Below are positions 13,780 to 36,802 of a stretch of DNA of 46,814 bases, one piece after another. The stretch is from positions 1 through 46,814 of the IMG/VR virus record IMGVR_UViG_3300044824_000040. The stretch is one strand, 5' to 3'. The notes beneath the pieces are model-generated. The model worked only from the letters and a program-made list of their open reading frames with translations, was not told where the DNA came from and searched no databases. Position 1 is the first letter of the stretch; each line of letters opens with the position of its first letter. The position numbers and the translations under genes were made by a program. Source of the DNA: a virus.

Positions 13780-15836
13780 CGCGTCGCGAGCACCCCCGCG
13801 ACGCTGCCATACTCAAACTCGGGCGCGATCGGCGGCTGGCGCATCAGGCCCTGTTCAAGCACCGGCACTCCGACGACACGCCGGCCTTTCACTACGAGCT
13901 CACCGACATCTGGCACTCTCGAGCGCCGCGTGTGAACACGATGGCGTTCCGCGAGGGAGGTAAGTCGACGATCGCCGAGGAGGCCCTGGTCGTCGGCGCG
14001 GAGTACCAGCTGTTCCACAACTGTATCGTCGTCGGTAACACCGAGAAGCGGGCATGCGAGCGCTTGACTGCCATCAAGTACGAGCTCTCGACGAACGACA
14101 TGCTGACCGAACTGTTCGGCGAGCACTCAGAGCGCACGGCGAAAGTGTGGAACGAGGCCGAGATCATCCTATCCAATAACGTGCGCATCGCAGCGCTCGG
14201 GCGCGGGCAGTCGCTCCGCGGCACTAAGTACTTGCAGTACCGGCCGGATTTCTTGTTCTGTGACGACGTGGAGGAGGTCGAGCCGGGGCAGTTCTACACT
14301 GAGGAGGAGGCCGCCGAGACGGTGCGGTGGTTCTACAAGGTGCTGATAGCTGCACTGGATAAAAATGCGCGCATTCGCGTCAACGCGACGCCGCTATCTT
14401 CCAAGGCGCTGCCGATGGTGCTCGCGCACGACAAGGACTGGCTGACCAAGACTTACCCGATCGAGTACGTCGACCCACAGGGAGAGCGTCAGCCCACTTG
14501 GCCATCGCGCTATCCGCTTCCGTGGATCGACCAGAAAAAAGATTCGTTCGTGCGTGTCGGGCTCCTGGCCGACTACATGCAGGAGTACATGTGCGTTGCG
14601 GAAGACCCGAAGGCTAAGGTGTTCAACGCTTCGATGTTCAAGGTCGAGCCGCGCGTGCATACGTGGCAACCCACCTTCGCCATGTACGACCCGGCGCGGT
14701 CGACCAAGGAGACGAGCGCGACGACGGGATGGGCGGTGTGGTCATGGCTCGGCAACCGGCTCGTGGTGTGGGACGGCGGCGGTGGGATGTGGCGGCCTGA
14801 TGAGTTGATCGCGCACCTGTTCGCTACTGCCGAGAAATTCTCGCCCGTGACGATCGGCGTCGAGGAGGACGGGCTCAACGACTGGCTCAAGCAGCCGTTG
14901 CGGCACGAGATGCTGCGGCGTAACATGCTGATCCCGTTCGAGCCGATGAAGGCCCCTAAAGGGAAGATTGCGTTCATCGAGGGGCTGCAGCCATTTTTTC
15001 TTGCGAGGGAGGTTAGCTTTGCGAAAGAGTTACCTACTCTCGTCCAGCAGTTCTTATCGTTTCCTGCCGGCCGGATCGACGCGCCGAACGCTCTCGCTTA
15101 CGCCCTTCGGATGCGCCCTGGCCTGGTGGTGTTTGACGAGTTCGCTTCTGCGAATGTCGTTGACGAGTTGCCCGTTCGCAAGAACTCGCCTTGCTGGCTC
15201 TGTCTCAACACCGGAGCCGGAGTGACGAGCGGCATCGTCGTACAGGTCGTCAATGGAGGCTTGCATGTTCTTGGTGATTACGTGCGAGAAGGCGATCCGG
15301 GTTCTGTATTGGCTGGCCTTGTCACTGACGCAAGCCTTGAGTTTGACGGTCTGCGTCTTGTGGCTTCTGCTCAACATTTTGGTGTTTATGATCGCCTCGG
15401 CCTTCGTGGTGCTGTTGCACGTCTGCCGAGCGATCTTCGTCGGGGGGGCGCGGAGAGCGTAGGGCGCGAGGAGATCCGTGCGCTTCTGCGCCGGCAGATC
15501 GGCGGGTTCCCCGCGCTACGAGTCTCGACCAAGGCGCAGTGGACGCTCAACGCGCTCTCGGCCGGCTACGCACGCGCGGTCGACAAGCGTGGCGTCGTGC
15601 AGGAGGAAGCGCGGGAGGGCGTGTATCGCGTTTTGATCGAAGGACTTGAGACCTTTACAGCGCTCATGAAGATCGGTACTCTAAGCGAGAGCGCGCCGAA
15701 CGTGCGCGTGACCGAAGGGGGCCAGCGTTATGTCTCGGCACTTCCCACGCGCACCGCGCCAACGCCTAGCAAAGATGAGTTTATGCGCGACTTTGGTCGC
15801 GTTACTGACGTGGGGTCTCTTACCGCAAAGCGCTGA
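13776..15836 (+). CDS. terL: Large terminase subunit (TerL) with extra C-terminal domain
   Basis: 686 residues. ATPase: Walker A REGGKST (59-65, Lys63), Walker B FLFCDDVEE (Asp163-Asp164), coupling segment NATPLS. RNase H-like nuclease: MYDPARS (Asp305), GVEEDG (Glu363/364) and GRIDAPNALAYAL (Asp435). About 230 further residues follow (455-686), with strands resembling another RNase H-like fold (SGIVVQVVNGGLHVLGDYV). The ATPase drives DNA into the prohead and the nuclease cuts concatemers. The last 107 bases also encode the start of the next gene in another frame. Confidence 0.92.
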   Translation: MTRREHPRDAAILKLGRDRRLAHQALFKHRHSDDTPAFHYELTDIWHSRAPRVNTMAFREGGKSTIAEEALVVGAEYQLFHNCIVVGNTEKRACERLTAIKYELSTNDMLTELFGEHSERTAKVWNEAEIILSNNVRIAALGRGQSLRGTKYLQYRPDFLFCDDVEEVEPGQFYTEEEAAETVRWFYKVLIAALDKNARIRVNATPLSSKALPMVLAHDKDWLTKTYPIEYVDPQGERQPTWPSRYPLPWIDQKKDSFVRVGLLADYMQEYMCVAEDPKAKVFNASMFKVEPRVHTWQPTFAMYDPARSTKETSATTGWAVWSWLGNRLVVWDGGGGMWRPDELIAHLFATAEKFSPVTIGVEEDGLNDWLKQPLRHEMLRRNMLIPFEPMKAPKGKIAFIEGLQPFFLAREVSFAKELPTLVQQFLSFPAGRIDAPNALAYALRMRPGLVVFDEFASANVVDELPVRKNSPCWLCLNTGAGVTSGIVVQVVNGGLHVLGDYVREGDPGSVLAGLVTDASLEFDGLRLVASAQHFGVYDRLGLRGAVARLPSDLRRGGAESVGREEIRALLRRQIGGFPALRVSTKAQWTLNALSAGYARAVDKRGVVQEEAREGVYRVLIEGLETFTALMKIGTLSESAPNVRVTEGGQRYVSALPTRTAPTPSKDEFMRDFGRVTDVGSLTAKR

Positions 15837-17274
15837 CGCGCAAGCACTCGTCGTCACCACCTGCGGCTCCTTGCCAAAAGCCTATTCGGCGGGCTCGACG
15901 CGGCAAGCCACTGTCGACGTTAACGGTAATCTCTGTTCTTCAGCCACGTCCACGGCGACGACTGCTGCCACTGCGGCGAGTGCGCTGCCGACAATCAGCG
16001 CTGGTGCGGGCGCGGCGGTCTACGAGAGCCTCGCGGGTGCGCTCTACGTGCAGCCGGTCTTTAGCTCGGCGACGGGCGGCGGCACGCAGGTCGATGCGAC
16101 GCACGGCTTGCCGGTTAATATCGTCGCTGGCAGCACAACAGGTGTTGCGCAGGGGGCGGCGTACTCGGCGCAGTTATTCACCCCTGTCATGGGCCTAGCC
16201 TCGACGAACGCGCCGACAGCGACGACTGGCGATCTGTGGGCGCTGAGCATATCGCCAGCTAGCGGCGGCGTGAGGATTGACCTGAAGGATAGTGCGGCGA
16301 ACACCAATGCGTTCATCGTTAATCCGGCTACGATTGCCACCTGGGGCCTCGCGGCGAGCACGCAGAATGTAGCGAGTCCGACGAACGGCGGGCTTGTGCT
16401 TGGGCAGTTCAATACTACGCCGACAACGATCACGACCGGCAATGTTAGCCCACTGCAACTTGACAGCGCGGGCAATTTGCTCGTGAACGTCAAGGCTGGT
16501 GGTGGCTCGGGCGGCACATCGTCCTCCTTCGGCTCCTCGTTTCCTTCGACGGGCACGGCCATCGGCCTAACCACTGGCACGAACATGGTCGCGTGGTCGG
16601 CGAGCAGCAACTACGGCACTGCGCCGGGTGCGATTGCTGTCCCGGCGGTCAACGCCTTTGTGACCAACGGCACCTCGCTTACCGTCAATCCGACGACCAT
16701 CGCCACCTGGGGCCTGACGCCCGTGGGCGGCACGACCAGTTCGCCGACGAACGCGATGCTTGCGGGTTGCCAATATCTCGTCTCTGCGCCGACTTACACG
16801 ACAGGCGACTCGGGCGCCGTGCAGTGTACGATCAACGGGTATCCCATCGTTAACGTTAGCAACACCAACGCGAACGGCCAAGCGCTAGCGGCGAATAGCT
16901 CGCCCGTCGTTGCCCCGGTACTGACTGCTGCTGGCGTTGCCGTTGTCACCGGCGGCATCCCGGTGGTGAATGGCGCCAGCACGTACAACACTATCGCTGC
17001 TTCGCAGACGGCACAGGCCATGACTGGCGGCAGCGGTGGGGCGACAGGAGACTATCTCTCCCAGTGTACCATTGTCCCGGCAACGACCGCGCCAGGCGTG
17101 GTAACGATCCTCGACAACGCAACGGCGATTTACTCGTACCCAGGTGGGGGCACGACGGCGCTAACGACGCTTGTGCCGTTTACCATTCCCGTCGGCGCAG
17201 TCAGCGTCAGCGGCGCATGGAAAGTGACCACGGGCGCGAACGTCTCGGTCGTCTGTGTTGGGAAATTCCACTAA
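15730..17274 (+). CDS. Secreted Gly/Ser/Thr-rich repeat protein (virion appendage candidate)
   Basis: 514 residues. Signal peptide to about residue 38 (cationic start, CATLVALLTWGLL, then SADAQA). The body is low-complexity beta-rich Ala/Thr/Gly/Ser. Two segments resemble each other: INVNPATIATWGL-type strings at about 196-206 and 317-327 (NPxTIATWGL), suggesting an internal repeat. A few Cys pairs (TCGSLP, NLCSS, AGCQYL, VQCTING) fit an exported, disulfide-bonded protein. It starts inside terL (GAAGGGGG 8 bases before ATG 15730) and its stop overlaps the next start (TAATG). Function unknown. Confidence 0.75.
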   Translation: MSRHFPRAPRQRLAKMSLCATLVALLTWGLLPQSADAQALVVTTCGSLPKAYSAGSTRQATVDVNGNLCSSATSTATTAATAASALPTISAGAGAAVYESLAGALYVQPVFSSATGGGTQVDATHGLPVNIVAGSTTGVAQGAAYSAQLFTPVMGLASTNAPTATTGDLWALSISPASGGVRIDLKDSAANTNAFIVNPATIATWGLAASTQNVASPTNGGLVLGQFNTTPTTITTGNVSPLQLDSAGNLLVNVKAGGGSGGTSSSFGSSFPSTGTAIGLTTGTNMVAWSASSNYGTAPGAIAVPAVNAFVTNGTSLTVNPTTIATWGLTPVGGTTSSPTNAMLAGCQYLVSAPTYTTGDSGAVQCTINGYPIVNVSNTNANGQALAANSSPVVAPVLTAAGVAVVTGGIPVVNGASTYNTIAASQTAQAMTGGSGGATGDYLSQCTIVPATTAPGVVTILDNATAIYSYPGGGTTALTTLVPFTIPVGAVSVSGAWKVTTGANVSVVCVGKFH

Positions 17275-18236
17275 TGTATCGCATAGCTCTCATAGCCTGC
17301 CTGCTATTCTCGCAGGCGGCGCTCGCGCAATCTCCTGTTCTTCCCGGTTTCCCGCCGGGAGTGTTTCAGGACACTGCGGCTATTGAGGCATCGGGGAGCG
17401 GCGCGCCCGCCTACTCCGGCCCCGGTGATCTTGCAAGCGGTTGGGCGTTCTGGTGGGGGCTGCGAGGGTTCAGTGCCGCCTACTCAACGGGTAGCAATCC
17501 GGCTATCGACATCTGCGATACGGCGACGGGGCTAACTTGCACAACGGGCATCAAAATTTTATCCAACGGAAATCTCGATGTTGCAACGGCAGCGGCGGCC
17601 CCAGCCTGCGCTGTATCTTGCAGCGTGACAAAATGGTACGACCAAACCAACCACGGCTACCATCAAACGCAGGTCGGTTTCGGCATTGCGTATGCGCCAA
17701 TCCTTAAATTCAACTGCATTGGAACCTTGCCGTGTCTTAGTTTCACCGGCACGCAATTCTTTGAAAATATAGCAAACCTTTTTGGCGGACAGGCACAACC
17801 ATTAACTGTTTCATTCGCTGGCGAGCAAATAGCTTCCGGTGCTTATGAAAGCGTGCTCAATGATGACGGCCATGCCGTTTCAACGCTCTTCGGCAGTAGT
17901 TCTAACACCGTTGCTGATTATGCCGGATCAGTAGCCACGGCTCCTGCAAACACAGGAGCATTTCATGCTGTGCAGATGGTTATGAACGGTGCTGCATCTG
18001 CCTGTTCTGGAACTACATCTTGCATTTATGTTGATGGAAACTCGACGGCAGGCTCGCCTGGGACGAATGGATGGTCGGCGAATGCTGCGATTTCTATAAG
18101 TTATAATTCGGGAAGATACATAACCGGCTATCTACTTGAAGATGGAATGTTGGCTGCGGGTATGACTACAACTCTTGCCAACCAAGTTTGCCACCAACAA
18201 GCGGCTTACTGGGGAATAGCGGGTACGACATGCTAA
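17274..18236 (+). CDS. Secreted arabinofuranosidase-B-like / jelly-roll protein
   Basis: 320 residues from ATG 17274. Signal peptide 1-19 (ends AALAQ). The order WGLRGFSAAYS, AIDICDTATG, NGNLDVATAAAA, CAVSCSVTKWYDQTNHG resembles the catalytic-domain start of family GH54 arabinofuranosidase B, which is reused in phage tail proteins. The rest looks like a LamG-like sandwich. Many paired Cys (PACAVSC, NCIGTLPC, ACSGTTSC) support export. It probably binds or cuts host polysaccharide; hydrolase activity is not established. Confidence 0.7.
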   Translation: MYRIALIACLLFSQAALAQSPVLPGFPPGVFQDTAAIEASGSGAPAYSGPGDLASGWAFWWGLRGFSAAYSTGSNPAIDICDTATGLTCTTGIKILSNGNLDVATAAAAPACAVSCSVTKWYDQTNHGYHQTQVGFGIAYAPILKFNCIGTLPCLSFTGTQFFENIANLFGGQAQPLTVSFAGEQIASGAYESVLNDDGHAVSTLFGSSSNTVADYAGSVATAPANTGAFHAVQMVMNGAASACSGTTSCIYVDGNSTAGSPGTNGWSANAAISISYNSGRYITGYLLEDGMLAAGMTTTLANQVCHQQAAYWGIAGTTC

Positions 18237-21049
18237 AGCGCGCTGTTATTTCGATTGTATCTCTGATCTCAATGACGTTCTGCTGCTTGACGGCGCAAAG
18301 AAGTGCCATTGTGGCAGCTTCATTGTTTGTATTTTCACTGTTCGCATCGGCAGATGGTTTCGCTCAATCCAATGCGACATCTTCCTTGGGTACGAATGTA
18401 GCGGGCGTAGCTTACTGGACCTCTGAGCAGCCATTTCTCAACATCTTCAAGACTGCCGGCGGCTGGTCAACGATAACTTTGGGCAGCAACAGTGATACTA
18501 ACGAGGAAGTTGCGCTATATCAGCATTTCCTCGACTCAAACGGTTATCCAACGACTTTGACCCCCGGCGGATCATATCAATTCAACGCCCTTTCCGTGCT
18601 AGTCTTGCGCCTTAGCTCGCCCTATTATAGCTCGCCCTATTATCTTGCGGGCGACTATCTGTTGCAATGGAATGGGAGCGCAAATTTTTCCTATGGTTTT
18701 GACCCTGGGAGTGGTATGTGCACCTCTAGTCCATGCAAGATCACCGTTACCTCGCCCTCGGGTCAGGGTATTTTCCTTAAAATGCAGTGCACGGGCACGG
18801 GTTGTCCTGGGGGCTCTGCGTACGCGACAAATATCAGCCTAATATATTGCGGTACTTATAACAGTTCCGCTCCCGCCGGCCAGCAATGCAGCGCCACAAA
18901 TTCTGCCGGCGTTACTTACGATACGCTCCTTTCTCAGTGCAATTCGGGAACACTTACGAGTTGCTTTAACCCGGCCTTTCTCAATCTTATCCAACCCTTT
19001 AAGACGCTGAGGTTTATCGATTGGATGAATACTGCGGGAAATTTCCAGACCAATTGGACTGACCGGCCGCAAGTGGGATGGGTATTCTGGGACGACAGTC
19101 GCACAAACGCAACGATTAATGGCGCCGATCCGCGTAGTTTTAGTGATGGTGTCCCAGCTGAGGTCATGTTTGCGCTGTGCAACGTCCTTAACGCGGACTG
19201 CTGGTTCAACATGCCGCCGCTGGCGACCGACGATTACGTCACTCAATTTGCTACATTGGCTCACTCGATGTTAAACAGCAACTTGAAGGTCTACGTCGAA
19301 TACGCCAACGAGCTCTGGAACTCAGTATTTGCACAGCAGCAGCCGGGAAATACCGGTGCACCGCTGGATTTGGCGTCGGTGTGGACGCAACTCGAGACAT
19401 TAGGAGAAAATACTTACCCTGGTCTTGCCGGCAACCCCTGGGGCGCAGCATTCCAGTATGGCATCATGCGTATGGTCCAGGTCGGACACGACTGGAAAAG
19501 TGCATGGGGATCGGATGCGGCACGCGTCATTCGTCTCGCAGGTGGGCAAAACGGTTATACGTATCGTAACCAGTGGATACTGACGAGCTTACCAAACGGG
19601 TCGAGCGTTGGGGGGGGCTCTCAAGGCGGCCCGACATATTGGTATGGCACGACGGGCGGTACGGTGGGCCAGAACGTAGATGCCTTCGCGGTTGCTCCGT
19701 ATTTCGGCTACGGCGTGCCGGATGCTTGGACTGGCTTTGCCGATAAAGGGCTGACGGCACTTTTCACCGAGATCAATAGCGGTGGCCTAATTGCAGATAC
19801 AGTGGGATGCACGACAGGCGGAACGATAGCGGCATCGACTTGCAGCGGGGTGATCTCATCTCCAGCGAATGGGGCGACGATTGCATTTACATTACCTGAC
19901 AACAACAACACGACCATTTTATCTGGCAGCTATAATTCGGGCACGGGAGTGGTCAGTCTAGCTCTTTATAGCCCTATTCCAGGGTTGGCTCCTGGGACTA
20001 TCATGCAGGTAAGTAGTGCGAGCGGAACAGGTAGCTTTTCAAGCATAAACGGTACTTGGACAGCCGGTTCTGGGACAAGCAGCAGCACGTTAAATTTCAC
20101 AATAGCCACGGGTTTGACGCTAACTATTAGTAATGCAAATGTTAAGACAACCATTTCATCTGGTAGCTATAATTCTGGCACAGGAGTAGTAAGTCTAACT
20201 CTTTCGCCGTCTACTCCAGGGTTGGTTTCTGGGACTGTCGTGTCAGTAAGTAATGCGACAGGAACAGGTAGCTTTTCAAGCATAAACGGTACTTGGACAG
20301 CCGGTTCCGGAACAAACAGCAGCACGTTAAATTTCACAATAGCCACGGGTTTGACGCTAACTATTAGTAGTGCAAATTTTGAATTTAGCACGGCTCCTGG
20401 CGTTACGCTCGGCCCTTCTGGCGGCACAGCTTACCCGATACAGGTCAACGACGGCGCTTGCGCGGGAACGTCAATCCCCAGCGGCACGCTGGGGCCCGGA
20501 GGCACCTACACCGCGGCATTTACTTCGGCGGTTGACACAGGAAGCTGTAGCGGCGGCGGTAGCATTACTCCTGGCTGGCGCATGTTCCAGTACGGTGTGC
20601 AGGACTACACGACGGGCAGTGTCGATACCGGCATGATCGCCCAAACTCTCAACTGGGCTACTGTAAATCTCGCTACCGCCCAGTCATATGGGCTTCCATT
20701 GGTGGCCTATGAGGGTGGCCAGACCTTTCAGTCTGGCTCAGATACGGTGTTGCAGACGCTTTTTGCAGCAGTGAATGTGGATGCTCGCATGGGAACGTCT
20801 TACACTAGCTACTTAAATGCCTGGAAAGCTCTCGGCGGCACGATGCTCAATCACTACACTGATATCGCCTCGTATAGTCAATATAGTTATTGGGGCGCGC
20901 TGCAAAGTGTGCTCCAAACAAGTTCACCAAAGTACGACGCACTGGTAGGATTCATTGCGAGCAATCCCTGTTGGTGGAATGACTTGAATGGCTGCACTGC
21001 GAGCAGTCCGCCCGGCGGCTCCTGGGCTGGCTTCATGGCGCATCACTGA
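18230..21049 (+). CDS. Secreted TIM-barrel glycoside hydrolase with tandem insert
   Basis: 939 residues from ATG 18230 (7-base overlap with the previous gene). Long signal sequence to about residue 46 (ASADGFA). A clan-A-like hydrolase pattern follows: TLRFIDWMN, then LKVYVEYANELWNS with acid/base candidate Glu361, and LVAYEGGQ with nucleophile candidate Glu828. Between them, residues 561-718 are two near-identical 79-residue beta repeats. Cys-rich N-terminal region (TSSPC, CTGTGCPGG, CGTYN). It probably degrades capsule or exopolysaccharide. Confidence 0.75.
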   Translation: MLKRAVISIVSLISMTFCCLTAQRSAIVAASLFVFSLFASADGFAQSNATSSLGTNVAGVAYWTSEQPFLNIFKTAGGWSTITLGSNSDTNEEVALYQHFLDSNGYPTTLTPGGSYQFNALSVLVLRLSSPYYSSPYYLAGDYLLQWNGSANFSYGFDPGSGMCTSSPCKITVTSPSGQGIFLKMQCTGTGCPGGSAYATNISLIYCGTYNSSAPAGQQCSATNSAGVTYDTLLSQCNSGTLTSCFNPAFLNLIQPFKTLRFIDWMNTAGNFQTNWTDRPQVGWVFWDDSRTNATINGADPRSFSDGVPAEVMFALCNVLNADCWFNMPPLATDDYVTQFATLAHSMLNSNLKVYVEYANELWNSVFAQQQPGNTGAPLDLASVWTQLETLGENTYPGLAGNPWGAAFQYGIMRMVQVGHDWKSAWGSDAARVIRLAGGQNGYTYRNQWILTSLPNGSSVGGGSQGGPTYWYGTTGGTVGQNVDAFAVAPYFGYGVPDAWTGFADKGLTALFTEINSGGLIADTVGCTTGGTIAASTCSGVISSPANGATIAFTLPDNNNTTILSGSYNSGTGVVSLALYSPIPGLAPGTIMQVSSASGTGSFSSINGTWTAGSGTSSSTLNFTIATGLTLTISNANVKTTISSGSYNSGTGVVSLTLSPSTPGLVSGTVVSVSNATGTGSFSSINGTWTAGSGTNSSTLNFTIATGLTLTISSANFEFSTAPGVTLGPSGGTAYPIQVNDGACAGTSIPSGTLGPGGTYTAAFTSAVDTGSCSGGGSITPGWRMFQYGVQDYTTGSVDTGMIAQTLNWATVNLATAQSYGLPLVAYEGGQTFQSGSDTVLQTLFAAVNVDARMGTSYTSYLNAWKALGGTMLNHYTDIASYSQYSYWGALQSVLQTSSPKYDALVGFIASNPCWWNDLNGCTASSPPGGSWAGFMAHH
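19910..20383 (+). repeat. Two tandem 237-bp direct repeats inside hydrolase gene
   Basis: Units 19910-20146 and 20147-20383 are each 237 bp, in frame, 79 residues. They are nearly identical over long blocks, for example GGAACAGGTAGCTTTTCAAG and the following 100 bases. Both encode SGSYNSGTGVVSL ... GTGSFSSINGTWTAGSGT. Synonymous differences are few, so the duplication is recent or is being homogenised. Confidence 0.95.
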
Positions 21050-25032: not shown

Positions 25033-25632
25033 ATGCGGCGTTTAATCCTCGTCGCGCTTGTGCTGGCGCTTGCGTCGCCCGCGTTTGCGCAGGCTAAACG
25101 ACAGCCCTTGACTGGCAACCCGGTCAGTGATTTTGAAAGTGCCATTGGCAAACGTCCGCCGCTAACCGGCAATCCAATCGCTGACATTGCGAATGCTAAA
25201 AACGCTAATAGTACGGCAACTCCAGCCTGCACCTTTCAGGCTTTCGCGCAGTTGACCGCCAACAACATCATCAACTTTATTAAGGCTTGCGCGACGCTCA
25301 TGGAGACCGATTCGCAAGCCGCACTCACGTCGGCAGAGGCTGCTAAAGACACTACCGCCATCGCCTGTCTGACGCCTGGAACGGCTTTGCTTACCGCGGC
25401 GATCGGGGTGCCCGAGGTTCCGGGGGTTCCGGCGATCCCGGCAACGGCCACGACCGCCGAGGTTCCGGCAGTAGCGGCGATCCCGGCGAAACTCGCCGGT
25501 CCCATCCTGATATTTCAGAAGTTCCGCGAGTTCGTCATGTCGGCGGGCTTGTCGAACTGCAACGCTTGGGTCAACACGACCATCGCTTCTACGATCGGTA
25601 GCGCAGCCCTCATCCCGATCCCCATCCCATGA
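25033..25632 (+). CDS. Secreted protein with PLTGNP repeat
   Basis: 199 residues. Signal peptide 1-19 (ASPAFAQA). Two copies of PLTGNPxxDxxxA (QPLTGNPVSDFESA and PPLTGNPIADIANA) follow the cleavage site. The middle has two further Cys, and a Val/Pro/Ala repeat VPEVPGVPAIPATATT precedes a helical end. Probably periplasmic, in the lysis region; function unknown. Confidence 0.75.
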   Translation: MRRLILVALVLALASPAFAQAKRQPLTGNPVSDFESAIGKRPPLTGNPIADIANAKNANSTATPACTFQAFAQLTANNIINFIKACATLMETDSQAALTSAEAAKDTTAIACLTPGTALLTAAIGVPEVPGVPAIPATATTAEVPAVAAIPAKLAGPILIFQKFREFVMSAGLSNCNAWVNTTIASTIGSAALIPIPIP

Positions 25633-27020: not shown

Positions 27021-28367
27021 ATGGCCGTCAATCAGTCTAGCAGCTTCCAGGCTGACGTAGAGGCATATATTGCCGACAAAACGCTGCCTCTGGCGCGGCG
27101 GCAACTCGTCGTCTACCAGTTCGGCGATCCCCTGACGCTCCCCAAAGGGCGCGGCGTGACCTATACCGCAACGCGGTATAACCGTGTGCCGCTGCCCTTC
27201 GCACCGCTCTCCGAGGGCGTGCCGCCGATCGGCGAACTCATGACCATCGGCCAAGTCACGGCGACCGCCCTGCAGTGGGGCGACAAGATCACCATTACCG
27301 ACATCGCCGAGATGACGATCAAGCATCCGCTGTTCAAGAAGGCGATCGAGCTTCTTGGCCTGCAGATCGCTGAAACACTGGAGCGCAACACATTCAACAA
27401 CCTCATGGGCGGCGCGCAGGTCAATTACGTCAACGCGCGCGGTTCGCGTGGCGGTCTCGTTGCCGGCGACGTACTCAATATCCACGAACTCAACCGCGCC
27501 TACGCCATGCTGGTCACACTCGGCGCCCCGCGCTACATGGGCGACGAGATGACCGATACCAAGCTCGAAGCCGACGCAGGCGGGGCGAAGGCGTCGAGCA
27601 ACCCGCGGTCGATGCCGCACTACGCTTGTGTGATACATCCGTTCGTGGCGGGCGATCTTCGCGAGAACCAACCGATCCAGTACGCCTGGTCGCAGTCGGA
27701 CATCAACCGGCTCTACAACTACGAGCTTGGCGAATGGTCGGGCATCCGGTTCTGCATGTCGAACATGGTGCCGTCGTTTACCGGCGTCGCGCTGATTCAG
27801 CCGACCGCCGGGACAGCCGGCAACCTCGCGACGAGCGCCACTTACTACGCCATCGTTACGGCTTCCGACACGCAGAATCAGTACGAGTCGCAGATCTACC
27901 AAGTTTCCGCCGCGACATCCGTTACCGGGCCGAACGGGTCTCTGACTGTCGTGCTGCCGACGCTCGCCGGCTACACCTTCAGCGTCTACATCGGTACGAC
28001 AAACGCTCCGGCCAATCTTGGTTTGAGCGCTGCAGGGCCGACAGTCGGTCCGATGCAGGGACAGGCGACGCAGATGGCCGGCGGCCAGACGGTCGTGATA
28101 ACGGGCATCGGCGCTTCGCAGATCCCCCCGGCTGCGCCGGGTACGGGCATTACGGTCTATCCGAACTACGTGTTTGGCCGCGGCGCTTACGGGCAGGTGA
28201 TGCTCGACGATACGAAGTTCACGTATCTCAAGGAAGCTGACAAGTCAGATCCTTTAAATCAATTACGCGTTGTAGGCTGGAAGTTAATGTACGGCACAAT
28301 TTACGAAAACCAGCAGTTCATGTTGCGCATCGAGAGCACGAGCGCGTTCAACTCCACCTTCGGGTAA
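27021..28367 (+). CDS. Major capsid protein, N4 gp56 family, with Ig-like insert
   Basis: 448 residues. The N-terminal 248 residues match the N4-gp56-type HK97-fold capsid: VAYQFGDP-like LVVYQFGDPLTLPKGRG, RYNRVPLPFAPLSEGVPP, QWGDKITITDIAEM, HPLFKKAIELLGLQIAETLE. Residues about 255-350 are a Thr/Ser/Gly-rich beta domain (TSATYYAIVTASD, SLTVVLPTLAGYTFSVYIG) resembling FN3/Ig-like folds. The capsid fold then resumes (NYVFGRGAYGQVMLDD). AGGAGAG precedes ATG 27021. The 3' end overlaps the antisense HNH gene by 20 bases. Confidence 0.93.
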   Translation: MAVNQSSSFQADVEAYIADKTLPLARRQLVVYQFGDPLTLPKGRGVTYTATRYNRVPLPFAPLSEGVPPIGELMTIGQVTATALQWGDKITITDIAEMTIKHPLFKKAIELLGLQIAETLERNTFNNLMGGAQVNYVNARGSRGGLVAGDVLNIHELNRAYAMLVTLGAPRYMGDEMTDTKLEADAGGAKASSNPRSMPHYACVIHPFVAGDLRENQPIQYAWSQSDINRLYNYELGEWSGIRFCMSNMVPSFTGVALIQPTAGTAGNLATSATYYAIVTASDTQNQYESQIYQVSAATSVTGPNGSLTVVLPTLAGYTFSVYIGTTNAPANLGLSAAGPTVGPMQGQATQMAGGQTVVITGIGASQIPPAAPGTGITVYPNYVFGRGAYGQVMLDDTKFTYLKEADKSDPLNQLRVVGWKLMYGTIYENQQFMLRIESTSAFNSTFG

Positions 28368-28851
28368 GGTAGTTGATAGCTGACTGAAGGATGGTAATGT
28401 CGTGATGCAGTTGTCCGATACCAACATTGCAAGCGTGGCAAAGCAAGCCACGCTTGCGGCCCGTATCGTGGCAATGATCTACAAACAAACGGCCGTTGTT
28501 TCTGTAGCCTTTTGGCTTTTGTTTGCAGATGGCGCACAAACCATTCTGCGCAGCTTCCATCGTTTCGTATTCAGCGACAGTCATTTTTTGGTTGCTTCTG
28601 AGCGCAGCAGCAAACGCTCGGTCGGGGTAGCGCTTGCGCCATATACGCGCGTACAGCGCTACTTTTTCGGGATTTTTGCGGCGCCATTTTTTAACTTGCG
28701 CGCGAGCCTTTTCAGGGTGTTCTTTTTTGTATTTGCGCGCATAAATGCGGTTGCATTCAGAACACAAATAGCCGCGCCCTTCAGGTTTGTTTTTAGCTTT
28801 GACAAACTCAGTAATTGGCTTTGTTGCTTTGCAGGTGTAACAAGTGCGCAT
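28348..28851 (-). CDS. HNH endonuclease (endonuclease VII-like), antisense after capsid gene
   Basis: 167 residues from ATG 28851, chosen because AGGAGGGAG lies just upstream; an upstream Met at 28890 is not needed. N-terminal zinc knuckle CYTCKATKP ... LCSECNR, basic helical linker (KYKKEHPEKARAQVKKW), then the HNH core CAICKQKP, VDHCHDTGRKRGLLC and CHACNVGIG. Sits antisense in the late operon and overlaps the capsid stop. Typical of a free-standing homing-type nuclease inserted near a conserved gene. Confidence 0.9.
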   Translation of the reverse strand: MRTCYTCKATKPITEFVKAKNKPEGRGYLCSECNRIYARKYKKEHPEKARAQVKKWRRKNPEKVALYARIWRKRYPDRAFAAALRSNQKMTVAEYETMEAAQNGLCAICKQKPKGYRNNGRLFVDHCHDTGRKRGLLCHACNVGIGQLHHDITILQSAINYLTRRWS

Positions 28852-28861
28852 GACTCCCTCC

Positions 28862-28885
28862 TGGTATGTAGAGCATGACATACCA
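28862..28885. repeat. 8-bp inverted repeat upstream of HNH gene
   Basis: TGGTATGT (28862-28869) and ACATACCA (28878-28885) flank AGAGCATG. It lies between the divergent HNH start and the next late gene, so it may be an operator or a recognition site of the nuclease. Confidence 0.4.
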
Positions 28886-28907
28886 TACATCGACAGGAGA
28901 GTAAAGT

Positions 28908-30057: not shown

Positions 30058-30506
30058 TGCTGGACAAAACCAAGGGACAGACCGAAGCCGAGACGGTCGA
30101 GAAGGGGCTTGGCGTCGGCGTGCGCTTCGCCTGCACGGTTGGCAATGGCCGCCAGATCGAGATGACGGCAGGCGTGCCGCTTGACTGGGAGTCGCAAGAT
30201 TTCAACACGCTCATGGACAAGCTCGCCGGGGTGATGGACCGACAGGCGTTGCGCTACGAGTTGCACGATCGGAAGGAAGCACTGGCGAAAGCCGAACGCG
30301 ACCTCATGACAAACCGCCAGCAGCTCGCCAACTACGAGCAGCAGTGCCAGAACGACTGGGAGCGGCGCGGCAAGCAGGGCGACTTCCGCATGAGCGAGAA
30401 CCAGAACAAGCAGGCGCTGAACTTCAAGAATACCGAGGGCCATCTGTCCGAGATGATCCGACGTATGCGCGTTGACATCGAGGAAGTTGAAAGGAAATGC
30501 CGTTAA
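30057..30506 (+). CDS. Coiled-coil structural-region protein
   Basis: 149 residues: a beta-like N-terminal part (VRFACTVGNGRQIEMTAGVP), then a long coiled coil (ALAKAERDLMTNRQQLANYE; EGHLSEMIRRMRVDIEE). It ends 10 bases into the next gene. Probably a virion assembly factor; no family recognised. Confidence 0.7.
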   Translation: MLDKTKGQTEAETVEKGLGVGVRFACTVGNGRQIEMTAGVPLDWESQDFNTLMDKLAGVMDRQALRYELHDRKEALAKAERDLMTNRQQLANYEQQCQNDWERRGKQGDFRMSENQNKQALNFKNTEGHLSEMIRRMRVDIEEVERKCR

Positions 30507-32932
30507 CGGCTGCACAGATATGCGCCCGCGCTGCTTCGATCGCACGAGTTCCGGGCTTCCTGTCACAAGCCGGGGACTCGCTTAACATCGTATTGGCCGA
30601 GCTGGCGCAGGACTACGATTTCGCCCTGCGCAAGAAAACCTACAACTTCAGTTTCAACACATCAGCGCTGAACGCGAACGGACAGGCGTACCAGAACTTG
30701 CCTGCCGATTATTTGCGTTCGATTCGTAACCAGTGTTTCTACTACATCAGCGGCGTGCCGTACCCGATGATCCCGCTCGATCAGGCGGAAGGCGACATGC
30801 TGGTCGAGCAGTCGGGCGTGTCTAACTTCCCGATCTTCTACTGGACCGACATGACGCTGATGGGCGAGACCAACGACGGTACGCAGGGCGTGCCGGTGAT
30901 GCTGTTCTGGATGCCGCCGAGCGGTGCGTATCCGGTGACGCTGCGGTACTACTCGGCCTCGACCGACATCCCTAACCCTTCGACAAGCGCCGCTGTCCCG
31001 TGGTTCCCGAACCAGAACTATCTCATCACGCGGGTTGCCGGCGAATTGATGAAGGATGGCGATGACGAACGGACCACGGCGTACTTGTCTGACAGCGAGC
31101 AGTATCCGAACGGTGCGGGGACGATTCTCAGGAAGTATTTGCAGATGAAAGACGACAAAGGCGATCGGGCGCAGGTGGTGCAGCTTGATCGTCGGCGGTT
31201 CGGGCGGGCATTTGACCGTTTGAAAAACACGAAGCAAATCGGATGGGCCTTGCCACTAATCATATCGGGTGGTATAGCCCTCGCAGCGTTGCTGGCTTTC
31301 AGCGCCCCTGCGCTCGCGCAGAAAACCAAGGCGGCGTTGATAACCGAGATCGGCGTGAACTGGCCCGACAACACGACGGGCGCGATCACACCTGCGCTGC
31401 TGCGCTCGACGGTCATCGACATTGTTAATTCGTACTTTGATTTCGCCGGGTCTACGTCTTTGACCTGCTCGGCGAATCAATTTGTAACGGCTTTCCCAAC
31501 GCTCAGTACGGCGACGTGCGCGCAACCGAGCGCTGCTAATTTATCTGGTTTGGGCACAGGCGTTGCCACCGCCCTCGGCAACAATGCTAACAGTACAGGA
31601 GGCGTGGCGACTTATGTGCTCGCCACCAACGCCGCGAAAGGTTTGATGGAAGGCGACGGCTCGACGATCACCTGCACCGCTGGTGTTTGTTCGGCGATCG
31701 GCGCCGTAGCGGCAAGCGTCGGAGTAGGCAGCACCACAGTCACCAGTTCTACAGGTAGCAACTACCTGCTCGGCACTGGCACGGTAGTCGCCGGGACAGG
31801 CACCCTTGCTAACTACGCACTCGGCACTGGGCTTATGCTAACCGGCAGCACGATCAACACTCCCTGGACGGTTAGTGGCAGCAACGTCGCTAGCAACAAC
31901 GCTGGTACGGTTACGGTCTCCAGTGTGGTATTCAGCGGCAGCAACTTCACGGGCGGTGCTGGTGGGTATCTCAACAAGTTCCGCAACGGGACGTTCGACG
32001 TGTGGCAGCGGGGGATTGGACCGTTCCCAAGCGCATCAGGCGGTGGATACTTCGTCGATGGTTGGCTAGTAACGGCCACAGGCGCTAATGGTTCCTGCAC
32101 TCAGGATGCAGGAAACGCGGGCACGACTTATTCGGCAAAGTGTGTTGGAGCAGCAAGCAACACTGATACGACATACACGCAGCGAATTGAGAGCTATGTC
32201 GCGACTCCACTTGCCGGACAAACGGTCACGTTCCAAATTCAATACAAACAGACCAGCGGGTCGTCGGTCACGCCTAAGCTCTCGACTATTTATCCAACTG
32301 GCGGGCGTGATCTATACTCTACTTACAGCACCGACCTTGCCTCGACTTCGCTAACCTCGTGCGCCAGTGGCTCGTGGTGCACAGAAAGCTATACATTCAC
32401 CGTCTCTGCAAATGCAGCGAGTGGCTATCAGGTCACCTTCGACTGCAACACGGCGCTGACGAGTGCTCAGGCGTGCTGGATCACTGCAGCCGACATTCGC
32501 GTGACGCCCGGCGTGGCGACGGGGATCAACTCCAACCCGCCGCCGCCGGAGCTACGGCCGATCTGGGTAGAGTTGGCATTCTGCCAGAGATACTTCGAGA
32601 CAAGCTATGATCTTGGCGTCACGCCAGGGACGATTACGTTTCCAGGAGTGTTTTGGAATTATGTTCTTTTTATAAGTGGTTCTGCGGGACAAATCGGCGG
32701 CGATGTCCGCTTCAAAGTCACCAAGCGGGTCGATCCGACGGTGACGATATATTCCCCAAATAGCGGCAACGGTGGATATGTGTTTTATGACGGCTCGTCG
32801 TCACCACCAGGAGACGTAACAGCAGCAGCAGGCCATACTGGGCAAAGCGGGTTTACATGGTACACCACACAGACCTTCACAGAATCTAACATGCAAGTTT
32901 ACGGTCAATTTGCAGCGAGCGCGGAGCTTTAA
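30497..32932 (+). CDS. Adaptor-type protein fused in frame to a signal-bearing fibre protein
   Basis: 811 residues in three parts. Residues 1-250 resemble a podovirus head-tail adaptor/tail accessory protein (RAASIARVPGFLSQAGDSLN, NLPADYLRS), and end with NTKQIGW, a natural C-terminus for such proteins. From 251 a signal-peptide-like segment follows (LPLIISGGIALAALLAFSAP, then ALAQ). The rest is a Thr/Gly-rich fibre with NKFRNGTFDVWQRG and PPPPELRPIWVELAFCQRYF, known from phage tail fibre ends. A stop codon expected at 31247 is absent. Mutation, or a second start at TTG 31250, is possible. Confidence 0.8.
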   Translation: MPLTAAQICARAASIARVPGFLSQAGDSLNIVLAELAQDYDFALRKKTYNFSFNTSALNANGQAYQNLPADYLRSIRNQCFYYISGVPYPMIPLDQAEGDMLVEQSGVSNFPIFYWTDMTLMGETNDGTQGVPVMLFWMPPSGAYPVTLRYYSASTDIPNPSTSAAVPWFPNQNYLITRVAGELMKDGDDERTTAYLSDSEQYPNGAGTILRKYLQMKDDKGDRAQVVQLDRRRFGRAFDRLKNTKQIGWALPLIISGGIALAALLAFSAPALAQKTKAALITEIGVNWPDNTTGAITPALLRSTVIDIVNSYFDFAGSTSLTCSANQFVTAFPTLSTATCAQPSAANLSGLGTGVATALGNNANSTGGVATYVLATNAAKGLMEGDGSTITCTAGVCSAIGAVAASVGVGSTTVTSSTGSNYLLGTGTVVAGTGTLANYALGTGLMLTGSTINTPWTVSGSNVASNNAGTVTVSSVVFSGSNFTGGAGGYLNKFRNGTFDVWQRGIGPFPSASGGGYFVDGWLVTATGANGSCTQDAGNAGTTYSAKCVGAASNTDTTYTQRIESYVATPLAGQTVTFQIQYKQTSGSSVTPKLSTIYPTGGRDLYSTYSTDLASTSLTSCASGSWCTESYTFTVSANAASGYQVTFDCNTALTSAQACWITAADIRVTPGVATGINSNPPPPELRPIWVELAFCQRYFETSYDLGVTPGTITFPGVFWNYVLFISGSAGQIGGDVRFKVTKRVDPTVTIYSPNSGNGGYVFYDGSSSPPGDVTAAAGHTGQSGFTWYTTQTFTESNMQVYGQFAASAEL

Positions 32933-32933
32933 G

Positions 32934-33464
32934 ATGTTGCGCCTAGCCCTGATAATCCTCGTCGCTCTCACGTCGGTTGCGAACGCCGCGACGCTGTATC
33001 AACTGACCAACAACTCGCTCGCCACCAACGCGCAGCCAGTGATCCGCGAAGCCGATGGCGCGACGATCCCGAACGCTGCTGGCAATACGGACTGGCAAGC
33101 CTATCTCGCATGGCTCGCCGTTCCGAACACGCCGGACGCCGCTCCTACGCCGGTATCAGTGACGTACACATTGCAGATCATCAGCACGTCCTACGGCGGC
33201 GCGCTGAACGGAACTTATCGCATCGACCAGATTTCCCAAGCGAACATCACGGCGATCTCAACATTCATTCTCTATGCTGGAAAGTTTCCAGCAACGACTG
33301 CCGATCCGACAGGCGCGACGCTGGCGTGGCTCGACAGTAGCAAGGTCTATCACACGTTTCCGAATGTAACGGAGTTCCAAGCCTTCGCCGCCGCGGTCGC
33401 CACCTATGTAACGAACTACCAGATTTCGGGCACCGCAGGATCGCAGCCGGTGACGATACCCTAA
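32934..33464 (+). CDS. Secreted structural-region protein
   Basis: 176 residues from ATG 32934, immediately after the previous stop. Signal peptide 1-18 (VALTSVANAA). The body is a Thr/Ala-rich beta domain with TLQIISTSYGGALNGTYRID and a helical end (FQAFAAAVATYV). It lies between a fibre-like and a tail protein and ends with overlap into the next gene. Function unknown. Confidence 0.7.
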   Translation: MLRLALIILVALTSVANAATLYQLTNNSLATNAQPVIREADGATIPNAAGNTDWQAYLAWLAVPNTPDAAPTPVSVTYTLQIISTSYGGALNGTYRIDQISQANITAISTFILYAGKFPATTADPTGATLAWLDSSKVYHTFPNVTEFQAFAAAVATYVTNYQISGTAGSQPVTIP

Positions 33465-35176
33465 TGCAGCGCAACTCCAAACCTATCGCATGGCGTGCTA
33501 AGGGACTCTCAGACGCGCTTGACGCGACGGACGCTTTCAATGGCGCTATGGCTTCGCTGCAGAACCTCATCCCCGACCCGTCGACACAGACGCTCTGGCA
33601 GTGCCGTCCAGCGGCTGTTCAAATTGCTGGTTTTGCTATAGGCGGCGGGACAGGGCCTTTCAGCTCAGGTTTCAGTTCGGGGTTTGCTTCTGGCGGGGGT
33701 TATCCCTGGAATAATCCCGGTTTTATTTCCTGTCTGAAAGTTGTTGGCTCCTATGCCTACGGCATGATCGCGCAATCAAACTACCTCGGTAAAGACGCCC
33801 CATTCTGCTTTGACCTAGTACACAGTGTTTTTGTCCCTGTGACGGGTGTCATATCGAGCGCGCAACTCCCCAATTCTCCGCTGACGACCGGCGCCTGGGT
33901 GCCGCCGTCGATGGCTGTCGTCGGTGCCGATCTCCTCGTCTGCTCGCAGGGCTTCACCGGGGCGGGCGGCAATTACTTTGGCTGGTTCGACATCTCAGTG
34001 CCGGGGGCGCCCGTGTGGCACGCCGGCAACCTGACCGGCCTCGTGCAGTTCACCGTGGCGCCGACCGCTGTCGCGCAATTCAACGATCGTGCCTATTACA
34101 TCCACAACTTGGTGGCGCAACCCGCAGTGATTTTCTCCGACCCGCTGTTCGCGACGAACGTCACGAACGCCAGTCAGGTATTGACCTTTAACGACAACGT
34201 GCCGTTGACCGCGCTCGGCGGTCTGCCCCTGGACAACCAGCTTGGCGGCGTTCTCCAGTCGCTTATCGTGTTCAAGGGCGTCACCAATATGTACCAAATC
34301 ACAGGTGACTCTGCTTTGAGCACCTTGACGATTAACTCGCTCAATGTCGCGACCGGCACTTTTGCGCCCAACTCGATCGCCTCGACACCGAAGGGACTGG
34401 CTTTCCTCGCTCCCGATGGCATGCGTCTGATCGACTTCAACGGCAACGTCACCGACCCGATCGGCTTCGATGGCCGCGGCGTGACGGTGCCGTTCATCTA
34501 CTCAGCCGTGCCCTCGCGCATGTGTGCGGCATGCAATGGCAACCTTATCCGCTTGTCGGTACAGAACGGCTCGCCTTCGGCAGTCGGCTCTCCGACGCAG
34601 GAATACTGGTACGATTTCGGCCGGCAAGTCTGGTCGGGGCCGCACACGTTCCCGGCTTCCCTGGTCCAGCCTTACATGCAGACATTCATCATGACGCCGA
34701 CCGGCGTGCTGGCGTCGCTGTGGCAAAGCGATGCCGTGCAGTCTAACACGTCGGTCTTTGTCGAGAACGGGCAGCAGATGCTGTGGAACTGGCAGACGGC
34801 GGATCTGCCGGATACCGAGTACATGACCAACAACTGCATGACCGAGGCGAGCCTTGACCTTGCGCTGCCCCCGTCCACACCGCCGATTACCGTAGCCGCG
34901 CAGGATCAAGCGGGGGCGTCCATTAACGCGGTTTCCATCGCTTCGTCCCCCGGCACAGGGACGTATTGGGGGCAGTTCCTATGGGGTCAGGCGAAGTGGG
35001 GAGGCGGCGGCTCCGCAGCTTTAGCGCCCTACCAACTCCCCTGGACGATACCGATCGTCTTCTCACGCCTGCGCATAAACGCGAACGGTACGTCAGCGAA
35101 CGCGCTAAAGATCGGCGCGCTGCACATGCGCTATCAGATCCTTCGGCAACTCGTTAACACGGCGGCTGCAGCATGA
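33464..35176 (+). CDS. Tail hub/plug protein, beta-propeller-like (P22 gp10-like role)
   Basis: 570 residues. It opens with NSKPIAWRAKGLSDALDATD and continues in repeated beta strands with Gly/Trp-rich ends (YWGQFLWGQAKWGGGG). Many phages place such a large beta-rich protein after the adaptor, where it closes the portal. Size and position fit; the family assignment is inference from layout. It overlaps both neighbours (single base or ATGA). Confidence 0.65.
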   Translation: MQRNSKPIAWRAKGLSDALDATDAFNGAMASLQNLIPDPSTQTLWQCRPAAVQIAGFAIGGGTGPFSSGFSSGFASGGGYPWNNPGFISCLKVVGSYAYGMIAQSNYLGKDAPFCFDLVHSVFVPVTGVISSAQLPNSPLTTGAWVPPSMAVVGADLLVCSQGFTGAGGNYFGWFDISVPGAPVWHAGNLTGLVQFTVAPTAVAQFNDRAYYIHNLVAQPAVIFSDPLFATNVTNASQVLTFNDNVPLTALGGLPLDNQLGGVLQSLIVFKGVTNMYQITGDSALSTLTINSLNVATGTFAPNSIASTPKGLAFLAPDGMRLIDFNGNVTDPIGFDGRGVTVPFIYSAVPSRMCAACNGNLIRLSVQNGSPSAVGSPTQEYWYDFGRQVWSGPHTFPASLVQPYMQTFIMTPTGVLASLWQSDAVQSNTSVFVENGQQMLWNWQTADLPDTEYMTNNCMTEASLDLALPPSTPPITVAAQDQAGASINAVSIASSPGTGTYWGQFLWGQAKWGGGGSAALAPYQLPWTIPIVFSRLRINANGTSANALKIGALHMRYQILRQLVNTAAAA

Positions 35177-36304: not shown

Positions 36305-36802
36305 ATGAAAAAGCTTCTGGCAGTATTGAGCGCGGTGATCGCGAGCGCGGCGCTCGCTTATGCGGCGAATTTGCCGTTAGTCCCATCCAGCCCGACTTAC
36401 AGCGAGCCCTCACAAATCATCGGGACTCTCAACAGTGTCATTCAACAGCTCAACGGGCAGACAGGCTACGCAGCGGCGCAGGTTGTTTCGTTGGGCACAG
36501 GTGGCACGGCATCGGGGGGCAGCGGTGCGGTTACGCTCAACGCGCAGCATGGAGTAGCATCGTTTACCGGCGTAGCCACGCTCGTCACTGGCGCGGTGGT
36601 AACTCTGACACTGACCAATTCCACCGTTGCAGCTAACTCGGTTTGCTTCGCGCAGGTGCTCTCGGGCGGCGCTGCCGGCTCGGGGCCTTATGTCTCAACG
36701 GCTACGCCCACAGCGGGGCAACTCGCATTTATCGTCGCTAACGGTGGCACGACGGCGACCGGCTCAACAGTGACTTTCGCAATCGGTTTCAACTGCATGT
36801 GA
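36305..36802 (+). CDS. Secreted beta-rich tail protein
   Basis: 165 residues. Signal peptide 1-20 (MKKLLAVLSAVIASAALAYAA). N-terminal PSSPTYSEPSQIIGTLNSVI is followed by a repeat-like beta domain rich in Gly/Thr/Val (TGVATLVTGAVVTLTLTNST) and two Cys. Looks like a fibre-base or decoration protein. Gene starts its own transcript candidate. Confidence 0.7.
   Translation: MKKLLAVLSAVIASAALAYAANLPLVPSSPTYSEPSQIIGTLNSVIQQLNGQTGYAAAQVVSLGTGGTASGGSGAVTLNAQHGVASFTGVATLVTGAVVTLTLTNSTVAANSVCFAQVLSGGAAGSGPYVSTATPTAGQLAFIVANGGTTATGSTVTFAIGFNCM

Follow-up and report, generated by a model that had tools for sequence, protein, structure and literature searches.

A tail adaptor gene repeatedly merged in frame with a signal-bearing fibre gene in a family of short-tailed phages

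In the viral DNA studied here (the window, 46,814 nucleotides at full length), a tail adaptor and a fibre with a signal-peptide-like start are encoded by a single reading frame, which raises the question of how such a frame arose and what becomes of its product. The ORF (30497-32932, + strand, ATG start) has 811 codons and no internal stop, and its residues 244-250 (NTKQIGW) are followed in the same frame by ALPLIISGGIALAALLAFSAPALA↓QKTK (Table 1). A sequence-only reading of this DNA had described an adaptor and an exported-type fibre in one frame, with a signal-peptide-like segment ending ALAQ between them. This description was borne out in both respects, as the frame is open throughout, residues 251-274 end in PALA↓Q, and a phrog_4492 match lies downstream.

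Table 1. Features of the fused frame and of the genes that follow it, in window coordinates.
Feature	Position	Strand	Basis
Tail adaptor (head-tail connector) domain, residues 1-250, ending NTKQIGW	30497..31246	+	PF24175, structure matches
Signal-peptide-like hydrophobic helix ALPLIISGGIALAALLAFSAPALA, residues 251-274	31247..31318	+	sequence
Degenerate second copy of the adaptor gene's 3' end, GCCACTAATCATATCGGGTGGTAT	31252..31275	+	profile match
Site of signal peptidase I type, PALA↓Q, fibre side Gln275	31318/31319	+	sequence
Fibre N-terminal domain QKTKAALITEIGVNWPDNTTGAITPALLRSTVIDIVNSYFDFAG	31319..31450	+	kept in separate and fused fibres
Fibre shaft region, low-complexity, Ser/Thr/Gly-rich	31451..31972	+	sequence only
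C-terminal fibre domain, residues 493-811	31973..32929	+	phrog_4492
Signal-peptide-bearing gene MLRLALIILVALTSVANA after the fusion, DUF4376-like C-terminal half	32934..33464	+	PF14301
Conserved gene closing the slot, nozzle-like by position only	33464..35176	+	synteny
Second fibre gene, tail collar domain, signal peptide MKKLLALLFCLFASPAAA	35173..36243	+	PF07484 above cut-off
Signal-peptide-bearing small protein MKKLLAVLSAVIASAALAYA	36305..36802	+	rule-based call

Adaptor and fibre domains

Residues 4-196 match the Pfam family PF24175 (SU10_adaptor) with 31.7 bits in a profile search, against a cut-off of 27. Since a profile search of the PDB sequences with the adaptor gave no match, the fold was tested via a predicted model (AlphaFold, residues 1-400, confident over about 1-220), in which a helix was also predicted at residues 245-265 with low pLDDT. 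The adaptor model aligned with VP1 (8zkk_B, Z 14.4) and SU10 (7z47_A, Z 13.3, rmsd 3.3 over 198 residues), while T7 gp11 (7box_M, Z 8.5) was further off than the other podophage adaptors; the adaptors of cyanophage A4 and Pa223 were also among the best solved matches. By its predicted fold, the segment 1-250 is a podophage tail adaptor of the SU10/T7 type. It has the fold, the length and the position before the tail genes in common with this group (PF24175; SU10 gp11, T7 gp11), but the known members finish at the embracing loop, whereas the window adaptor continues in frame into the signal-like helix and the fibre.

At the other end of the frame, residues 493-811 match positions 793-1096 of phrog_4492 (phage tail fibre) with an E-value of 1.6e-29. 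The C-terminal region also gave tblastn matches to tail fibres of Stenotrophomonas and Synechococcus phages, and homologues of the domain at 59-62% were found in three IMG/VR contigs. Neither the adaptor nor the conserved gene downstream (window 33464) had a match in the phage collection, and from their sequences these are short-tailed phages of a family that has no cultured member in that collection.

The fibre N-terminal domain (KTKxxLxTEIxxNWPDNTTGxITPALLRST), which is common to the window fibre and to the separate fibres encoded in the same slot after the adaptor in relatives, is probably a docking domain. It resembles the N-terminus of the neck protein of Guernseyvirinae (44-57% identity over 37-45 aa, E 1e-3 to 0.2); in these siphophages, the neck protein (phiWAO78-1 gp19, Shemara 018) starts with MAKTKTEMFALIGTNLADNTTGAITPELLRE, similar to the first mature residues of the fibre. 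The match is short, and it gains credibility from a common gene position, as the neck-protein gene overlaps or comes after the head-tail connector gene, and the fibre gene also lies beside the connector gene. Unlike the window fibre, the neck protein has no signal peptide and no cysteine, and it is not fused. If the likeness is right, a fibre freed of its signal would present an N-terminus for docking on the connector, like that of the Guernseyvirinae protein.

Two genes as the rule, recurrent fusion as the exception

Relatives were collected by searching viral contigs, with the adaptor or the fibre as query, and by a genome scan, keeping the best 80 loci per query. The matches listed comprise 121 non-redundant adaptor loci, all of them metagenomic, among which the fused fraction is not a population estimate. 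Adaptor ends were checked in 28 relatives first and later in all 121. At 98 of the 121 loci listed, the adaptor stops directly after [N/S/D]TKxxGW, in agreement with the earlier view of NTKQIGW as a natural C-terminus. The alignment with relatives that the sequence-only reading had proposed as a check likewise confirmed that adaptor and fibre are two genes in other relatives. In 57 of the 114 rows of an adaptor tree, the slot after the adaptor is closed immediately by the conserved next gene; in other relatives it holds a separate fibre gene.

Among the matches listed, 5 of the 121 relatives have an in-frame adaptor-fibre fusion, which makes six with the window. The five fused products have 622 aa (L045), 459 aa (L175, = L127/L125), 745 aa (L177, = L132), 562 aa (L138) and 782 aa (L180, = L143/L142). 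The six fused rows stand at six places in the 114-row adaptor tree, with no sister pairs. Exchange of gene modules can inflate this count, and we claim at least three origins (the window, L045 and the L127 group). L175 and L177 have the helix xIAAMFLWFFAWQxPAEANC in common, and their fusions probably go back to a single origin.

Both of these genomes are fused although their DNA is only about 72% identical (about 28% different) and dS in the adaptor is saturated. In the 20 codons past GW, they differ by 6 synonymous and 2 non-synonymous codons (dN 0.09, dS 0.89); between L127 and L125, 4,139 nt align gap-free with 59 differing sites. Judged by these substitutions, the fusion frame is kept by selection in L175/L177. 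Taken across the listed loci, the sequence comparison indicates that the connector gene is repeatedly merged with the neighbouring signal-bearing fibre gene in this phage family.

One additional adaptor that reads into the next gene (L015, near 2802) has a frameshift near residue 238 relative to L011/L012, probably a read error, and was left out of the fusion count.

Anatomy of the junction

Separate slot fibres begin, in nearly all tabulated cases, 2-5 nt beyond the last codon of the adaptor (for example TGG TGA G ATG AAA AAG), with an ATG start and usually a Lys/Arg n-region; many begin MKK...PAxA↓Q. These starts are Sec-type signals (MKKLLAAFLCLSLVTAAYA↓QKTK, MKRLLIALGFMSALMSPAYA↓QKTK and others), and the signal segment of the window fusion is the same segment that heads the separate fibre genes of relatives. 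All six fusions lack the adaptor stop and the MKK start of the fibre, and all six retain the hydrophobic core and the PAxA motif (PALA↓Q, PAHA↓Q, PAEA↓N twice, PAHA↓N and PAKA↓C). As the stop and MKK are lost and PAxA is kept, the KNTKxIGW of the adaptor stands in as the charged n-region of the signal. The features of a Sec/signal peptidase I substrate (charged n-region, hydrophobic core, AxA site) were found by the rule used throughout, with KNTKQIGW of the adaptor as the n-region and PALA↓Q as the site in the window fusion. On this evidence the fusion is intact and recurrent, with KNTKxIGW replacing the start codon and Lys-Lys n-region of the fibre.

Trivial causes explain these junctions poorly. 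Sequencing error is ruled out as a general cause, because the fusion recurs and the frame is open across deep divergence. Between 31225 and 31309, no single-base substitution, insertion or deletion gives a stop together with a separate start with a charged n-region; since such edits never restore two normal genes, a lost stop or a read error fails to explain the arrangement in the window. With the fusion present in other genomes as well, sequencing or assembly error was discarded as the cause. Recent loss of a stop codon, which the sequence-only reading had offered as its second option, was dropped as a general cause, as the fusion occurs in five other relatives listed and every fusion is also without the start codon and the Lys-Lys n-region of the fibre.

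A more specific form of this option is an accident confined to the present genome, by stop loss or recombination at the gene end, recent and either neutral or harmful. We consider it very unlikely, given that five other non-redundant relatives listed have the same architecture across deep divergence, with signal core and PAxA intact in the fused relatives. It draws some support from the window itself, since no close fused relative was found for a test of selection at its junction (the exact junction DNA had no match in the viral contigs searched), and since an out-of-frame copy of the adaptor 3' end resembles a recombination scar. This degenerate copy (GCCACTAATCATATCGGGTGGTAT), 26 nt past the first, is identical to the adaptor end of L001 at 18 of 24 positions, and, with true adaptor ends set aside, ranks third to fourth by profile score among 785,000 positions. 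Noticed post hoc, it may, with moderate support, be the scar of unequal recombination at the gene end.

A promoter candidate picked by eye in the same region (31250-31278, TTGCCA-17-TATAGC) was absent from the promoter scan and would start transcription within the signal core; it was dropped.

In L070, L010, L092/L017, L160, L023, L153 and L147, the adaptor ends in a hydrophobic tail of 18-28 residues with no fibre. The GRAVY values of these seven tails (0.9-1.7) are matched by 7.5% of the read-ons beyond the stops of other adaptors, and the tails are consistent with tolerance of a hydrophobic end on the adaptor.

In L004, L010 and L017, the adaptor is followed immediately by ORFs that, judged by eye, look like homing endonucleases of the HNH type. 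Besides taking up fibre genes, the slot after the adaptor may also be a target for homing.

Signal peptides and cysteines as possible signs of export

Signal peptides were called throughout by one hydropathy/AxA rule. Signal-like starts were found by this rule in 0 of 117 adaptors, 0 of 59 MCP, 0-1 of 88 copies of the gene after the slot and 0-2 members per family of the other head-side genes. Among homologues of the collar-domain fibre (window 35173), the same rule called 37-43 of 48.

Cysteine content follows a similar division. Slot fibres reach a median of 2.1%, compared with 1.19% for adaptors (P 4e-8) and 0.90% for the gene that follows the slot (P 6e-11), where the P values are guides only, the rows being related. 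Even cysteine counts, the expected outcome of disulfide pairing, prevail among slot fibres (21 of 23, or 19 of 22 when a fixed cut is used) and collar fibres (16 of 19), whereas MCP (21 of 56) and the gene that follows the slot (24 of 52) are unbiased in this respect. The window fibre, with 11 cysteines, is among the few with an odd count. Together, these patterns suggest that slot and collar fibres are exported and disulfide-bonded. The Sec-type signals and apparently paired cysteines of the fibres contrast with the other structural proteins of the family, which lack signals.

Alternatively, the exported products could be secreted proteins acting at the cell surface (such as receptor decoys or Lom-like proteins) whose genes lie among the tail genes. 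Sec-type starts and paired cysteines would suit such a role, and there is a known case in lambda, whose exported protein Lom has its gene between tail genes (PMC12309495). Lom, however, is an outer-membrane beta-barrel, unfused and not fibre-like, unlike the window product. The C-terminal domain found here matches phage tail fibres, the N-terminal domain is similar to that of a neck protein whose gene adjoins a connector gene, and a decoy fused to a connector would be odd, all of which leaves the secreted role rather improbable.

One chain or two products

With the connector and the exported fibre in a single chain, either the host signal peptidase would split them or they would enter the particle jointly. 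In L138, there is no ATG, GTG or TTG within 14 codons on either side of the junction, so the signal core of this fusion can be made only as part of the fused chain. This argues for translation of a single chain in which the segment keeps its function as a signal. Retention of PAxA despite the changed surroundings argues for cleavage.

An alternative to translation as a single chain is a nested arrangement, in which the fibre is also or mainly initiated inside the adaptor gene, giving both a fusion and a free fibre. In-frame TTG codons are found in the window at 31220 (which would give MKNTKQIGW...) and at 31250, L045 has an ATG at the junction, and L175, L177 and L180 have one four codons further on. 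Internal initiation may accordingly occur in some members (TTG/ATG near the junction in five of the six), but not in L138. Only 26 of 113 adaptors use TTG for the Leu that precedes KNTK, one among several Leu codons at this position, no clear ribosome-binding site was seen upstream by eye, and the ATG and charged start of the separate fibres are gone in all six fusions. We regard nested initiation as improbable on balance.

The main rival to a cleaved precursor is an uncut fusion in the virion, with the whole chain in the tail, the fibre covalently tethered to the adaptor ring and the helix serving as a buried linker. The absence of a stop and the selection on the frame in L175/L177 are in its favour. 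The excerpted account of SU10 (PMC9509320) bears on it in both directions. There, long tail fibres dock on the adaptor, so that a tether would link natural neighbours. The adaptor is a dodecamer and the fibres are six trimers, however, so that 12 tethered chains would face 18 fibre chains, a mismatch that the mix of tethered and free chains expected from nested genes would ease. In the same account, the C-terminal embracing loop of the adaptor is directed into the portal, where it threads between and is buried among the portal subunits, which makes an uncut fibre hard to place. A linker, moreover, would not require PAxA and signal-like hydropathy, yet both are retained. We consider the uncut form unlikely, and the idea in the sequence-only reading of a novel tail built from a single uncleaved chain is doubtful for the same two reasons: the buried loop in the excerpted SU10 account, and the signal-peptidase site retained in every fusion. 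Together they make cleavage into two products more likely.

As described in these excerpts, the SU10 long tail fibre gp12 is likewise a neighbour of the adaptor and binds it via its N-terminus. They mention neither a signal peptide nor a fusion for gp12, unlike the window fibre, the comparison being one of descriptions only (PMC9509320).

We give about an even chance to the reading that the frame encodes an adaptor-signal-fibre precursor, directed to Sec by its internal signal and then cleaved by the signal peptidase I of the host. The ribosome would make the adaptor first. The hydrophobic helix would then engage Sec/YidC, the adaptor staying in the cytoplasm and the fibre passing into the periplasm, and signal peptidase I of the host would cut after PAxA. 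The cut would release the fibre, with disulfides now possible and the docking domain as its new N-terminus, and would leave the adaptor carrying a short hydrophobic tail. In the least certain step, the exported fibre would join virions once the envelope opens at lysis, or act outside the cell. Translation as a single chain, export and cleavage of the product, its disulfides and the entry of the fibre into virions are our inferences from the sequences.

An internal signal behind 250 folded residues is an unusual Sec substrate. Tailed virions, as far as known, assemble in the cytoplasm, so that an exported fibre would require a hypothetical assembly step. It is a tentative proposal, which we think may well be wrong, that a family of tailed phages exports its fibres via Sec, folds them with disulfides in the periplasm and adds them from outside at lysis, with several lineages having fused the fibre to the adaptor and using signal peptidase to mature a connector-fibre precursor. 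If true, part of the virion would be made across the inner membrane, contrary to textbook cytoplasmic assembly, and the fusions would be a rare example of a host housekeeping protease maturing a structural precursor of a phage. The open literature searched, seen mostly as titles and abstracts, yielded neither tail fibres with signal peptides nor adaptors fused to fibres, which is weak evidence of novelty.

Neighbouring genes

The gene that directly follows the fusion matches PF14301 with 24.1 bits, slightly below the cut-off of 25. The conserved gene closing the slot had no profile matches of its own. A signal peptide like that of the small protein at 36305 was also found in all three of its homologues with a comparable start.

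Signal-like segments also occur far upstream in the window. After the terminase gene (15730-21049), there are three long cysteine-rich ORFs with such segments at or near the start (MSLCATLVALLTWGLLPQSADAQ, MYRIALIACLLFSQAALAQ, MLKRAVISIVSLISMTFCC...), one of which resembles LamG weakly, with a score under the Pfam cut-off. A small protein with a signal peptide and four cysteines (MRRLILVALVLALASPAFAQ...) is encoded before the capsid genes (25033-25632). Directly after the major capsid gene, and antisense to it, lies an ORF (28348-28890, - strand) with CxxC and DHCHDTGRKRGLLCHACN motifs, which we read, by motif, as a putative homing endonuclease of the HNH/endonuclease-VII-like type.
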